The translations under genes were made by a program, and so were the position numbers. The notes under the pieces were generated by a model that saw only the letters and a program-made list of their open reading frames with translations, was not told the origin of the DNA and did no database searches. From a virus, in IMG/VR virus record IMGVR_UViG_3300027985_000820, positions 1 to 29,130 of that record: a DNA stretch of 29,130 nucleotides; one strand, 5' to 3'. This document shows positions 5,365 to 15,933 of this stretch, in pieces (the first letter of the stretch is position 1; each line of letters opens with the position of its first letter).

Positions 5365-6072
5365 ATGCGTGAAGAATTTGTTCAAACGCAGAATTATATC
5401 AAACTTGTCGAAGCTTTTTCAAATCTTGATGAGCTTCCTGTCAGCGCACCCCGCATCGGGCTTGGGTACGGCAACTTCGGGCTGGGTAAAACGTTTGCCC
5501 TAGAGCGTATTGCGCTCAAGGAGAACGCCATTTTGTTTCGGGCGTCCGAGACATGGACGAAAAGCTCGCTGCTTTCAAAGCTGTGCGGGGAGCTGGGTCT
5601 GGATACCAAGGGACATAGCCCTCAGCTCTACGAGCGGGTTCTGGAGTCGTTTCTGGTCAACCCCAGAACGCTCATCATCGACGAGGTAGACGCCCTGACG
5701 CGCGGCGACAAGGTCACGGTTCTGGAGATGCTGCGCGGGCTGCATGATGAGTCGAGCATTGTGCTCTTTCTCGTTGGTATGGAGCAGGCTGACGCCAAGC
5801 TCAAGCGCCACCGTCACTTCTACAGCCGCATCGTCGAGTTTGTGAAGTTCGAGGGGATCGGACCCGCAGACATCGAAAAATTCTGCACATTGTGCGACGT
5901 CGCTATTGAGCCTGACCTCATAGGCTTTTTTGCAAAACGCTACCCAAACCTGCGCCAGATCAAAGTCATTCTGTTGCGTCTGGAGAATTTCTGCAAAATC
6001 AACGGCATCAAAAGCGTTGATCTCAAAACATTCAAAGCATCGGGGGTAGAGCATGGGGTCGACAAAGCCTAA
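5365..6072 (+). CDS. MuB-type AAA+ target-capture ATPase
   Basis: An ATP-dependent DNA-binding partner of the transposase that selects target DNA and stimulates strand transfer. The start at 5365 has AAGGAG six bases upstream and gives 235 residues. Walker A is GNFGLGKT (36-43) and Walker B is TLIIDEVD (102-109). A sensor-type segment VLFLVGMEQAD and a C-terminal helical lid follow (YPNLRQIKVILLRLENF). Mu B is 312 residues with an extra N-terminal HTH, which is absent with this start. An in-frame extension overlapping the transposase end exists but has no better ribosome site. The 3' end overlaps the next gene by 20 bases. Confidence 0.88.
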   Translation: MREEFVQTQNYIKLVEAFSNLDELPVSAPRIGLGYGNFGLGKTFALERIALKENAILFRASETWTKSSLLSKLCGELGLDTKGHSPQLYERVLESFLVNPRTLIIDEVDALTRGDKVTVLEMLRGLHDESSIVLFLVGMEQADAKLKRHRHFYSRIVEFVKFEGIGPADIEKFCTLCDVAIEPDLIGFFAKRYPNLRQIKVILLRLENFCKINGIKSVDLKTFKASGVEHGVDKA

Positions 6073-6616
6073 GCGCTTCAAGAGAAAAGCATCGAAAAAA
6101 CAGAACGTCTGGGCGTACATGCGCCGAAATCGCACCTTCAGAGTGGGTGACATCATGATGCTGCTGGAACTGACGCAGCGTTACCTCAAGCCCATACTAT
6201 GGCACCTTGAAAAAGCCGGATATCTCACCCTGACACAGGATAGCGGAGAGTATCGCGACCGCATCTATACACTGGTGCGAGATACTGGGGTGAAGTCGCC
6301 ATCGATCATTAACGGGGAGGTTTTTGATTACAACACTGGAAAGTTCCATAGTGCAAGCCCCAAAAATATGGCTCGACACAATCTTTTGAAGACGCTTGAG
6401 GCTTTGGAACATACGATCATGACCAAGCACGAGATGGCAGAGGGTGCCGGAATGTCACGGGAGTCCGGAGCCTCGAAACTGGTATTTCAGGAGCTGGAAC
6501 TCAAAGGCGTCATAGCGCGCACCAACCCAATCAGCAGACGTGATAACAAGATGCTATTCACTGTAAACACGGAGAAGCGTGATGCACTCATTGCAGCACT
6601 TCAGGCAGATGGTTGA
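6053..6616 (+). CDS. winged-helix DNA-binding protein
   Basis: A 187-residue basic protein. The lysine- and arginine-rich start (KPKRFKRKASKKQ) is followed by two segments that look like winged helices. The first is about residues 20-75 (VWAYMRRNRTFRVGDIMMLLELTQRYLKPILWHLEKAGYL), the second about 110-175 (LEHTIMTKHEMAEGAGMSRESGASKLVFQELELKGVI). The order and overlap with MuB (20 bases) and the next HTH gene suggest a transposition- or replication-linked DNA-binding factor of the early operon. I know no precise family. Substrate and target are unknown. Confidence 0.75.
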   Translation: MGSTKPKRFKRKASKKQNVWAYMRRNRTFRVGDIMMLLELTQRYLKPILWHLEKAGYLTLTQDSGEYRDRIYTLVRDTGVKSPSIINGEVFDYNTGKFHSASPKNMARHNLLKTLEALEHTIMTKHEMAEGAGMSRESGASKLVFQELELKGVIARTNPISRRDNKMLFTVNTEKRDALIAALQADG

Positions 6617-10749: not shown

Positions 10750-11664
10750 GTGTTTGATTTTCTACAGGAAGAGTGGTTGCTCACCGAAGAGAAGCTTCAC
10801 AGCAAAACAGAGTACTACATTGAGAACTTCATTCCCAAAGAAGGGATTACGATGTGGTACGCAAAATCAGGAGAGGGAAAAACATGGTTTTCCCTTGCTG
10901 TAGCCAAGTATATTCTTGACAATCATTCTGATGTGCGTGTGCTGATCTACATGGATTTTGACAACCCCCGTGCAACACTGTCTGATCGGAATGTTGAGCT
11001 GCTAATTTCAAATTATCATAACTTCAAGTTTCTTCATCGGTCAACTATCTCTATCAGCCCTTCAGAGTTGCTTGTCAACATTGGAAAGGGTGCATTCGGA
11101 GAGAATTATAAAGACTGTATTTTTATGATAGATGCCGCCCGTGACGTTGCCGAGGGAGACATGTATAACGATACGAAAGTACGGGCAATGATGGATGTAT
11201 GCAAAAATATACGGGAAGCCAGAGGCACGATCATATTCAACCACCATGCAACAAAGAACGGAAAGCAGATTGATGGCTCCGGAGAGTTTGCTAAAAGTTT
11301 GGATGTACTATACAGACTGGGGCAGCACTCGAAAACAGAAGGCATGATTCATTTGAACCTCGATGCTGAAAAAGAGCGCCTCCCTGTACTCGATCAAACT
11401 TTTACGGTAGACACAAAAACACTATGCCTGAGACCTATGGACGACAGAGTGGCGCGGATTGACGGTGATGATAAGGCATTCATTGACCAGGTAAAAGATG
11501 TCCTGTCAAAAACAAAAGACGGCATGGGGCAGAGCGAACTCCTTGCCAAGATGGGGCTTGAAAAAAGTGATAGACCTGCAAGAGCAAGACTGGAAGCCTT
11601 CACGGGCACATTCTGGAACGTGGCACAGGGTGCACGCAATTCAAAAGTCTATACATTGGTATAG
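10750..11664 (+). CDS. RepA-like hexameric helicase ATPase (AAA_25/RecA fold)
   Basis: A 304-residue protein; GTG start at 10750 with GGAGG seven bases upstream. Walker A is AKSGEGKT (38-45, first glycine replaced by alanine). An IYMDFDNP segment is near 67-73, Walker B is CIFMIDAA (123-130), and IIFNHHATKN (161-170) matches the sensor strand of the RepA/DnaB-like RecA-fold helicases. The last 60 residues look like a winged helix (GMGQSELLAKMGLEKSDRPA). Plasmid and satellite RepA proteins of this type unwind DNA as hexamers at an origin. Mu itself relies on host helicase, so this gene is unusual here. GAGTGTTG repeats lie on both sides. Confidence 0.82.
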   Translation: MFDFLQEEWLLTEEKLHSKTEYYIENFIPKEGITMWYAKSGEGKTWFSLAVAKYILDNHSDVRVLIYMDFDNPRATLSDRNVELLISNYHNFKFLHRSTISISPSELLVNIGKGAFGENYKDCIFMIDAARDVAEGDMYNDTKVRAMMDVCKNIREARGTIIFNHHATKNGKQIDGSGEFAKSLDVLYRLGQHSKTEGMIHLNLDAEKERLPVLDQTFTVDTKTLCLRPMDDRVARIDGDDKAFIDQVKDVLSKTKDGMGQSELLAKMGLEKSDRPARARLEAFTGTFWNVAQGARNSKVYTLV

Positions 11665-14002: not shown

Positions 14003-14473
14003 TTACGCGATCCCGATCAGCGCATCCAGCCCGTCGCTGATCGCCTCCATAATCTCCTCTCTCATCCCCTCCAAAACTTCCCCATTTGAATCTATCGGAA
14101 AGAACGGTCGCGCAGGAACCGTTCCTTTTTTGTTGCCGAACTGCTGCACCATCGGGTAGTAGTATCCGTTCGCCGTGGCACTAATGCCTATCTCGGCGCG
14201 GACCGGAGTGCTAACGGTGTAAATTGAGTCCTGCAGGTTCCCCTCTTCATACAGCTTTTTGCTTGACCCCTTGCGCTTTATGGTTGCAGGCTTCAGCGGC
14301 GCCCATGGTGTACCGCTGTAGCTGCGCTCCCTTTCAAACGAATCTGCAACGGCATTGACCACGACATTGGCAGCTTCCGCATAGAGTGCCTTTGACGCCT
14401 CAAGCTTTCTATCAAGCTGCTGCAAAAACTCGACTACCTCGTCGAGTCCTTCAATCTTCACACTCTCATTCAT
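14003..14473 (-). CDS. phage virion morphogenesis protein (Mu gpG-like)
   Basis: A 156-residue protein of the virion morphogenesis family (Mu gpG), which is linked to head-tail joining or tail completion. The start at 14473 has AAGGA upstream. Recognisable parts are the N-terminal LDEVVEFLQQLDRKLE helix, SYSGTPWAPLKPATIKRKG, the GNLQDSIYTVSTPVRAEIGI beta section, YYYPMVQQFGNKKG, and the conserved VPARPFFPID near the end. It is last in the leftward head operon, separated from muF by 203 bases that contain an oppositely directed tRNA-like element. Confidence 0.87.
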   Translation of the reverse strand: MNESVKIEGLDEVVEFLQQLDRKLEASKALYAEAANVVVNAVADSFERERSYSGTPWAPLKPATIKRKGSSKKLYEEGNLQDSIYTVSTPVRAEIGISATANGYYYPMVQQFGNKKGTVPARPFFPIDSNGEVLEGMREEIMEAISDGLDALIGIA

Positions 14474-14586
14474 GTAAATCCTTCAAAAACAGCGTTTAAA
14501 TGGTGTTTAAAAACTAGAAAAGCTTTTTTTTCGACTCATTGGTCGTGTAAGGCATAAAAACGACTCTACGGCCTGTTTTGAAAAAG

Positions 14587-14595
14587 TGCTATAAT
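14587..14595 (+). promoter_or_regulatory. extended -10 promoter for the tRNA-like RNA
   Basis: TGCTATAAT is a perfect extended -10 (TG, one base, TATAAT at 14590-14595). No matching -35 is found at normal spacing, which extended -10 promoters do not need. The predicted start, about 14602, is five bases ahead of the tRNA-like element. It points against the head operon. Confidence 0.65.
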
Positions 14596-14606
14596 TTTGA
14601 AGTAGA

Positions 14607-14671
14607 TGAGCGATAGGTTTAGCGGTAAAACAGATTAAGTTCGGTCGCGGGTTCGAGTCCCGCTCGCTCAT
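14607..14671 (+). ncRNA. tRNA-like RNA with shortened anticodon arm
   Basis: A 65-nt element with most tRNA hallmarks. The acceptor stem TGAGCGA (14607-14613) pairs with TCGCTCA (14664-14670), all seven pairs perfect, with two more pairs possible outside. T8 and A9 follow. The D arm is GTTT/AAAC around AGCGGTA, with one extra base before it. The T arm GCGGG/CCCGC has the canonical loop TTCGAGT. Only 14 bases (14633-14646) remain between the D arm and T stem, where about 21 are normal. They can make a 4-bp stem with two G-T pairs and a 6-base loop, so no normal anticodon is present. CCA is not encoded. The perfect stems and the adjacent promoter argue against random decay. It could be a decoy or mimic, a processing signal, or a degenerate tRNA. 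Confidence 0.6.
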
Positions 14672-14676
14672 CGCCT

Positions 14677-15933
14677 TCAAAATATCTTCTCCTTCCCTTC
14701 CAATGCTGTATTCAATGCTTCATCCGTTTCATAAAGCTGGCCGCTGTGTACAGAGTGAAATACATTTTTCTTGTCCCCGATATCCACACCTACAACAACT
14801 TTCGCTTTTGAAGAGAGTTCGAATATCAAAAGCAGATGCCCGTCATAGTATGCCGATACAGGTTCATGTATGATATCAAGAAGGCTATAGATGTCTTCCG
14901 TGCTGAGAGTGTTTTTTTCGGCTTTCTTTTTCAGCAGTCCGACGCTCTCTTCACCTTTTGCTTTCAGGTTTCTTATTGCTCCGGTATCTGCCAGAATGAG
15001 ATCGCTTTGCGGCTTACGCTTTTCAAGCCATGCATGCAATGGCTCAATGAAGCTAAGGTATCCGAGGCGCATCTTTTCATGGCGCTTGTATTCGGTATCG
15101 AGGGCACGGTCTACAAAACCTTTCCACTCATCCCGGCCCGGCAGCATCTGCATCATATCTGATTTGTAGCTTTCACGGATGATGTCTTCATAGGGGCACA
15201 ATACCGTGCGTGTTCGTGCAAATGCTTTCTTACATGTAACGCTCTGCACCTTTTCAAAATACTGCTGCTCTGCTGTGTAGCCGCCATCTTCGCACGGGCT
15301 ATGATCCCACCCTTCATCAAAGATATCATCCGGCGCTTCTTCGCTGATCTTCCAGCCGCGCTTCTTGATCTGAGATTCGCTGTGAGCCGTCACGGTGCAT
15401 ACACATCCGTAACCGTTCGGAGCGCGGTTTTTTTTCCACCATGGGTGATCACGATGCAGAGTCACTCCATGGCGTGCTCTATGGTTTTCGCGTGTGGTGG
15501 GCAGCAGCTTCGAGACATAGCGCCAGAAGACGCTGGAGACCAGCAGCTTTTGCTCCCGGCAGCGGGCAATCTCGCGGCTCATTCTCATGTTGGTATCGAA
15601 AATAGTCCGGAGTCTACGGCTGCCGATGTTGATGGTTTTCACCTCGCCCGTCTCAGGGTTCACAATATCCTGCTCACCCCACCACCCTTTTTTTTGAAGC
15701 GTGGGAATAATGTTCTTTTTCCACTCTTTGAACCCGGCACCGCTTTGCTGTGCCTGGACAAGACTCTCATGCATATCCTGCAGCAGATCCATCCGCATCA
15801 TCTTTGCAACGGTGAAGGCGCGGCGGTGGGCTTCATAGTTCACTTCGTCGTAAAAAAAGCTGAGCTTGTAGCCCTTGTCACGGAGTATGGCGACGTTCTC
15901 CTCCGGGGTTTGCCCCCATGCAATGGAAATCAT
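14677..15933 (-). CDS. MuF minor head protein with extra C-terminal domain
   Basis: A 418-residue minor head protein. GGAGG lies upstream of ATG 15933, and the start is 3 bases after the portal stop. The MuF core is at about residues 105-182: SRRLRTIFDTNMRMSREIAR, FWRYVSKLLPTTRENHRARHG, and the conserved PNGYGCVCTV with C177 and C179. Known MuF proteins sit inside the head near the portal and some are injected. After about residue 300 there is an extra domain (312-418) with LLDIIHEPVSAYYDGHLLLIFE and VVVGVDIGDKKNVFHSV. This resembles the small nuclease-type effector domains (PBECR group) often fused to MuF, but catalytic residues cannot be assigned by eye. Confidence 0.85.
   Translation of the reverse strand: MISIAWGQTPEENVAILRDKGYKLSFFYDEVNYEAHRRAFTVAKMMRMDLLQDMHESLVQAQQSGAGFKEWKKNIIPTLQKKGWWGEQDIVNPETGEVKTINIGSRRLRTIFDTNMRMSREIARCREQKLLVSSVFWRYVSKLLPTTRENHRARHGVTLHRDHPWWKKNRAPNGYGCVCTVTAHSESQIKKRGWKISEEAPDDIFDEGWDHSPCEDGGYTAEQQYFEKVQSVTCKKAFARTRTVLCPYEDIIRESYKSDMMQMLPGRDEWKGFVDRALDTEYKRHEKMRLGYLSFIEPLHAWLEKRKPQSDLILADTGAIRNLKAKGEESVGLLKKKAEKNTLSTEDIYSLLDIIHEPVSAYYDGHLLLIFELSSKAKVVVGVDIGDKKNVFHSVHSGQLYETDEALNTALEGKEKIF
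15230..15239. repeat. TTACATGTAA palindrome, copy 3
   Basis: Exact copy inside muF, at codons for VTCK on the minus strand. Confidence 0.6.

Follow-up and report, generated by a model that had tools for sequence, protein, structure and literature searches.

Immediately past its muF gene, a Mu-like transposable phage carries on the opposite strand the sequence of an RNA that folds like a tRNA without a normal anticodon arm, and similar RNAs follow muF in relatives whose MuF proteins end in the same class of C-terminal tip. We propose, with a probability of about 60%, that this RNA provides immunity in cis: it would bind to the tip, a predicted RNase, as a tRNA decoy that resists cleavage. The pattern suggests a new kind of RNA antidote that replaces the usual immunity protein in dozens of related phages.

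Architecture of the muF end and its antisense RNA

The window, which is the whole stretch of 29,130 nucleotides analysed here (IMG/VR record IMGVR_UViG_3300027985_000820), is a 29 kb piece of the phage, with a Mu transposase and a TniB-like ATPase on its left side and with portal, terminase and capsid proteins encoded by the minus strand (Table 1). Its early region also holds, at 10750-11664, a member of phrog_6357 (E 1e-68), a conserved phage protein family of unknown function. The muF and gpG genes are separated by a gap of 203 bases, in which the antisense RNA ends 4 bases from the muF stop codon, with the two orientations opposed.

Table 1. Coordinates of the features at the muF end of the window
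Feature	Position	Strand	Basis or remark
Extended -10 promoter TGCTATAAT of the antisense RNA	14587..14595	+	Sequence; pattern search
Outer arm of inverted repeat, partner 14675-14683	14594..14602	+	Mostly upstream of predicted start
Predicted RNA start, ~7 bases past the -10	14602..14604	+	Predicted from the -10 position
tRNA-mimic RNA body (acceptor, D arm, shortened anticodon region, T arm)	14605..14672	+	RF00005; covariation with L392 and L237
Acceptor stem 5' arm, partner 14664-14671	14606..14613	+	9 bp if 14605-14672 is counted
D arm with G18G19 (stem 14617-14620 / 14628-14631)	14617..14631	+	Invariant in window, L392 and L237
Shortened anticodon region, 14 bases, conserved	14633..14646	+	13/14 identical in window, L392 and L237
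T arm, stem 14647-14651 / 14659-14663, canonical loop TTCGAGT 14652-14658	14647..14663	+	Rfam alignment
Acceptor stem 3' arm	14664..14671	+	Pairs with 14606-14613
muF	14677-15933	-	Stop codon 14677-14679
MuF C-terminal tip, class-1 PBECR/MuF_C-like predicted RNase domain	14680..15285	-	Weak MuF_C match, relatives, AF2 model
MuF N-terminal head-protein domain	15286..15933	-	Pfam Phage_Mu_F 5.8e-11; phrog_220 1.2e-65; 88% identical in L002
gpG-type neck / tail completion gene, Neck1 type	14003..14473	-	Pfam Phage_tail_S 3.1e-9, phrog_26; downstream neighbour of muF
Swapped cassette, toxin tip + RNA	14569..15286	.	blastn, window vs L002

Comparison by blastn against the nearest relative, L002, revealed that similarity breaks off at 15287 and is back at 14568, so that the N-terminal parts of the two MuF proteins are 88% identical and the C-terminal parts are unrelated. 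Between these breakpoints L002 has, in place of the tip and tRNA mimic of the window, a zincin-like tip with an HETGH motif, whose sole Pfam match is weak, and a small sense-strand ORF. MuF toxins mostly possess a small putative immunity ORF directly downstream (PMC5576092), and the site in L002 is apparently a classical toxin-immunity cassette at the same location. Judged from the sequence, the tip and RNA of the window likewise have the structure of a polymorphic-toxin cassette, in which the tRNA mimic takes the place usual for a protein immunity gene in MuF systems. The only small same-strand ORF found after muF in the window, of 52 residues, is not conserved in the relatives L237 and L392. 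The zincin-tipped MuF of L002 lies at 5649-6530; others occur in L176, L177, L187, L195, L246 and L249, all of them without an antisense promoter.

The window tip scores 15.1 bits against MuF_C, under the curated cut-off of 27.6, and the homologous tip of L012 matches PBECR3 at 5e-6, with 26.8 bits of 30. The other large cluster of tips gives PBECR2 matches up to 1.5e-19. The AlphaFold2 model of the window tip (pLDDT 81) resembles viral models in BFVD named 'Phage MuF C-terminal domain' and 'Nuclease', with E-values of 1e-5 to 4e-4 (4e-4 for those named MuF_C). Fold searches of the PDB with this model and with that of the L232-type tip gave no significant match, and annotated phages, searched directly at the DNA and protein level, returned none to the window tip. 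Set beside the PBECR/MuF_C families (PF18810, PF18812, PF18819; PMC5512222), the tip has relatives that match their models and a fold model with a resemblance to viral MuF_C proteins but significantly to no solved structure, and it stays under the curated cut-off. PMC5512222 treats MuF-C as a PBECR predicted RNase and suggests mRNA, instead of tRNA, as a possible substrate of PBECR domains. We infer that the window tip is an RNase; its subfamily shows Asn in place of the His, probably catalytic, of most class-1 tips.

The RNA had been noticed in a preliminary description of the sequence, which read an intact acceptor stem, U8/A9, D arm and T arm, 14 bases where about 21 are normal, and an extended -10 upstream of an RNA running opposite to muF. 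All of this agrees with the sequence: U8 and A9 are present, and 14633-14646, which spans from the base after the D arm to the T stem, has 14 bases instead of about 21. An anticodon arm with a 7-base loop, as expected of a working tRNA, is absent from the window RNA, and no CCA end is encoded in its sequence. The extended -10 pattern has two matches in the window against 0.74 expected, and the identical TGCTATAAT precedes the RNA of L237; no recognisable -35 was found with the copy in the window. A 20-base inverted repeat (14594-14613 / 14664-14683) reaches past the acceptor stem. Since its outer arm is sited in the promoter and start region, this arm is probably mostly outside the RNA. At 14677-14690, and likewise in relatives, the final muF codons (often ...KIK or KIR followed by the stop) antisense-encode the 3' arm of the RNA and a T-rich tract beyond it, so that the toxin C-terminus and the RNA 3' end have bases in common.

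The covariance-model scan that the preliminary description had suggested for the window RNA and its relatives bore out the likeness to tRNA. Positions 14607-14671 (+) match Rfam RF00005 with 40.4 bits, above the gathering threshold of 29 (E = 4.7e-9 in a one-family search), and the family matches precisely at this spot at the muF end in 10 virus records; one record, L236, has in addition an ordinary tRNA elsewhere. The same search gave no match in two short-MuF and three PBECR2 records. ARAGORN called no tRNA at the window RNA, and the default fast filter of Rfam, run over the whole window, missed it; therefore automatic annotation would not show it. The RNA folds far better than its dinucleotide shuffles (z = -4.2), as does the reverse strand (z = -5.4), and folding energy does not discriminate between the strands. 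YrlA, a bacterial Y RNA, gave a 17-base match (E 9.7), and it was rejected along with other Rfam families as the identity of the RNA, the scores being at chance level.

Conservation and tRNA mimicry beside class-1 tips

Two diverged relatives, L392 and L237, whose MuF proteins are 52% and 59% identical to that of the window, have homologous tips with the RNA immediately after muF; muF of L237 is frameshifted in the assembly, and the RNA comes just past the point where the shifted frame ends. Aligned across all three, the RNAs hardly differ in the D arm, the T loop and the 14-base segment, and vary in the acceptor and T stems. The pairing is kept throughout: across 21 pairs, 63 of 63 cells are paired and none is broken, and six pairs have changed on both sides yet are kept. 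Five of the eight acceptor pairs are altered on both sides among the three sequences, with none broken, and the T stem has a compensatory change in L392. None of 500 shuffles was as good, and shifted registers fall to 29-52% paired. The alignment contradicts decay and shows the short anticodon region to be a maintained feature. The preliminary description had named loss or decay of the fold in relatives with the same MuF end as evidence against its reading, and the opposite was seen in L392 and L237.

A search with the sequences of the tips covered 397 Campylobacterota genomes in addition to viral contigs. On inspection, a tRNA-like antisense RNA follows essentially every intact-ended gene of MuF size, and none follows the large polyvalent proteins. 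A strict tRNA grammar was matched on the antisense strand at 46 of 83 loci, amounting to 37 distinct RNAs that include a few spurious ones or ones with a misplaced acceptor, compared with 0 of 64 controls, 1 of 83 sense strands and 43 of 1660 shuffles. Twenty short loci searched against all Rfam families gave nine matches, all nine of them to the tRNA clan. Similar RNAs were also found outside Campylobacterota, for example in L284 (Moraxella) and L263 (Sideroxydans). A pattern for the shortened anticodon region, with 12-20 bases from D arm to T arm, has at least 120 matches in the unrelated viral contigs L045-L124.

The mimics covary at the elbow, between position 18 of the D loop and position 55 of the T loop. 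With position 18 and six rows read by eye, we found G/U in 22 mimics, A/G in 15, A/U in one and G/G never; the related mimics of L012 and L252 differ at both positions. The same rule, U55 with G18 and G55 with A18, was reportedly obtained by the Steinberg laboratory in selections of active suppressor tRNAs. By contrast with host tRNAs, of which 20 of 32 show a 7-base loop by the same procedure, 16 of the 19 mimics with a hairpin in the anticodon position have only three or four bases in its loop, and none has seven. The missing anticodon arm, taken in the preliminary description as a peculiarity of the window copy, is one form of a family-wide trait of 3-4 nt loops. CCA was not encoded in the mimics looked at. 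In these sequences the elbow and acceptor body are thus preserved and the decoding loop is gone, as would suit an inert decoy, and the amino-acid end has probably been removed as well.

The promoter motif (49 antisense against 1 sense), the T-loop grammar (46 against 1) and the wobble pairs in stems (26 G-U against 3 A-C, many of them shared by descent) point to the strand antisense to muF as the one that encodes the RNA. L232 and L227 have tips that are 87% identical and mimics that are quite different, one of a short D-loop type and the other with a long variable arm and a TGCAACT loop, as though one RNA had replaced another while the toxin stayed the same. This speaks against sequence-specific pairing of RNA and tip and fits recognition of general tRNA shape, and it seems to be the shape and not the sequence that is under selection. 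Assignment of each mimic to one tRNA isoacceptor was dropped, as the best matches were separated by small margins, and we claim no target tRNA. An attachment-site remnant or recombination site was likewise rejected, given that the phage is transposable and that mimics of different phages have in common no sequence able to act as such a site.

Distribution of antisense RNAs among MuF loci

For a wider survey, MuF loci were gathered from viral contigs and bacterial genomes and their C-terminal parts were clustered, giving 52 PBECR2-like tips, 43 tips of class 1 (including the window), 7 zincin-like tips and 64 short MuF proteins without a tip. On the strand opposite to muF and no more than 300 bases from the stop of this gene, a strict TGnTATAAT was present at 49 of 94 loci with PBECR2 or class-1 tips (26/51 and 23/43, respectively), mostly at 57-128 bases from the stop, and at 0 of 7 zincin and 0 of 63 short loci; on the sense strand it was present at one of the 94. 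A perfect closing stem of at least 8 bp at the muF stop accompanies 55 of the 94 tip loci, compared to 4 of 63 short ones. Many of the short-MuF controls belong to distant bacteria, which gives most weight to the zincin controls and to those from near relatives: among near relatives only, the antisense promoter was found at 20/26 and 30/48 tip-bearing loci against 0/7 zincin and 0/4 short. The loci are related to one another, and these counts are not of independent events.

The window RNA is one member of a family, in which the gap between a PBECR/MuF_C-tipped muF and gpG holds a structured RNA, preceded by an extended -10, on the antisense strand. PBECR-type-tipped MuF genes without a gap and without antisense RNA occur in L042, L007/L242 and L231, which possibly have inactive tips or immunity elsewhere. 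At PBECR2-tipped MuF genes (L008, L169, L170, L190, L244 and others) the antisense RNA is different and not tRNA-like. Many of these RNAs contain a hairpin GGC(A)...GCC, the loop of which is pairable with a downstream segment as in a pseudoknot. The loop and segment change together and still match (GUCGG/CCGAC, GUAAG/CUUAC and GCAGAC/GUCUGC), and the pairing is present in 25 of 41 RNAs of this class compared to 15% in controls. Such sequence patterns hint that having an RNA partner is a general trait of MuF proteins with PBECR tips. A third RNA type (GAAACACGGUGAAUCUC...GCCGUAG...), by eye not tRNA-like, was seen in the muF-gpG gaps of L278, L254 and L259, beside other class-1 tips, from Campylobacterota and Nitrospirae.

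Proposed function, rival explanations and related systems

In the proposed mechanism, the MuF head protein would carry its RNase-like tip into the cell, probably delivered with the phage DNA, and the opposite strand would encode the RNA immunity element for this tip. Made from its own host-type promoter, the RNA could be present in the lysogen, while muF is a late gene; an extended -10 with no recognisable -35 would fit such host-driven expression of a prophage gene. The RNA, being tRNA-like to the elbow and acceptor stem and having neither a normal anticodon loop nor an encoded CCA, would act as a decoy that cannot be cleaved, lodged where the tip binds tRNA, and thereby inhibit a toxin whose target would be tRNA. 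Producing cells and lysogens would be protected, and incoming particles would harm only cells without the RNA. A guard of this kind was one of three roles that the preliminary description had offered, and it is the best supported of them: the RNA travels with PBECR/MuF_C tips and is absent at short and zincin MuF, and we infer the binding and the toxicity. The other two, a tRNA-processing handle and a regulator antisense to muF-gpG, gained no specific support. Several points speak against the decoy, namely the sub-cut-off score of the window tip, its Asn for His, the lack of a significant PDB fold match, the mRNA cutting suggested for PBECR domains (PMC5512222), the RNA-less L042, L007 and L231, and the RNA of the PBECR2 class, which is not tRNA-like. 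We lean somewhat less firmly, at better than even odds, towards a broader reading in which RNA immunity forms a whole class in phages. Every PBECR/MuF_C toxin delivered by a virion would then have as its guard, in place of an immunity protein, an antisense-encoded mimic of the toxin's target: tRNAs without anticodon loop and CCA for one toxin class, and a pseudoknotted RNA for the PBECR2 class.

The same association and shape would be expected if the RNA were a ligand of the tip for another purpose, such as a virion cofactor, an assembly chaperone or an RNA cargo delivered with MuF, and inhibition is not distinguished from other binding by them. We nevertheless consider this unlikely, as a separate host-type promoter outside the late operon and the removal of both functional tRNA ends fit a decoy better, and the RNA sits where immunity genes sit. 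It is improbable that the RNA acts in cis by pairing with the muF-gpG late messenger, for instance to silence gpG in the lysogen. Its position gives it full complementarity to the intergenic region, but selection has acted on the fold and not on the sequence, as seen from the compensatory stems and invariant tRNA loops; moreover, antisense action needs no tRNA shape, and the RNA is absent at short MuF and zincin tips although gpG remains. A decoy or working tRNA that counters host tRNA-cutting defences or tRNA enzymes, unlinked to MuF, has an equally low probability: phage tRNAs do defeat such defences (PMC11555353, PMC10264068), yet this RNA is confined to one MuF tip class, inside a cassette swapped with the tip and not found with other tips, and the window copy has no normal anticodon arm.

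Protein immunity was also considered, in the form of the 52-residue sense-strand ORF just past the muF stop, which overlaps the tRNA-like sequence and has its ATG a few bases after GAAGG. It has an in-frame stop in L237 and no ATG in L392, a non-conservation that largely refutes a small immunity ORF in the gap and makes this reading very improbable. Its RDSNPRP-like peptide, moreover, is what a reverse-complemented tRNA T arm is expected to give, such peptides being the usual translation of these arms. A captured host tRNA gene in decay, or a chance fold, would account for the missing anticodon arm, the lack of CCA and a T arm strongly like that of Campylobacterota tRNA-Gly. This was rejected, and its probability is close to nil, in view of the compensatory changes by which the RNA is kept in the diverged L392 and L237 and the grammar controls of 0/64.

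The nearest known systems to the decoy proposed here are the RNAs of type III toxin-antitoxin pairs and the working phage tRNAs that act against tRNA-cutting defences. ToxIN and its relatives offer an analogy of working, since there, as presumed here, an RNase toxin is inhibited by an RNA. Type III RNAs consist of repeats and lie upstream of a ToxN-fold toxin, on its strand, a tandem-repeat layout that the window locus lacks; by contrast, the window RNA is single, downstream, antisense, tRNA-shaped and paired with a virion-protein toxin. Bacterial Y RNAs such as YrlA resemble it as non-decoding RNAs with a tRNA-like part, and are tied to Ro/Rsr proteins. The phage tRNAs that defeat PARIS (in T5) and retron-Eco7 (PMC11555353, PMC10264068) are also tRNA-like RNAs encoded by a phage to counter a tRNA-attacking RNase, but they are working tRNAs that replace cleaved ones, whereas the window RNA lacks a decoding loop and goes with a toxin of the phage itself. 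Compared to the MuF polymorphic toxins (PMC5576092), the window shares the MuF N-terminal domain, the variable tip, the swapped cassette and an element directly downstream, and differs in the nature of this element, a structured RNA encoded antisense in place of a small ORF on the toxin strand. By analogy, the element would work like an RNA antitoxin; the toxin family is a known one, but the protein immunity usual there is missing from this locus. The available part of PMC5512222 describes no RNA partners for the PBECR/MuF_C family, and a literature search, thin on preprints and subscription papers, found neither an RNA partner of MuF toxins nor tRNA-mimic antidotes.

If the decoy reading is true, an RNA would take over from a protein as the guard of a delivered polymorphic toxin, and tRNA mimics would serve as cognate antidotes. 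We know of no earlier case of either. The long-open question of the MuF_C/PBECR target would become directly testable, as for one class the antidote has a shape that points to tRNA. Many Mu-like prophages have an overlooked non-coding gap that an antisense RNA would explain, and the covariation at the elbow would provide a natural data set on how the tertiary contacts of tRNA can be rebuilt.
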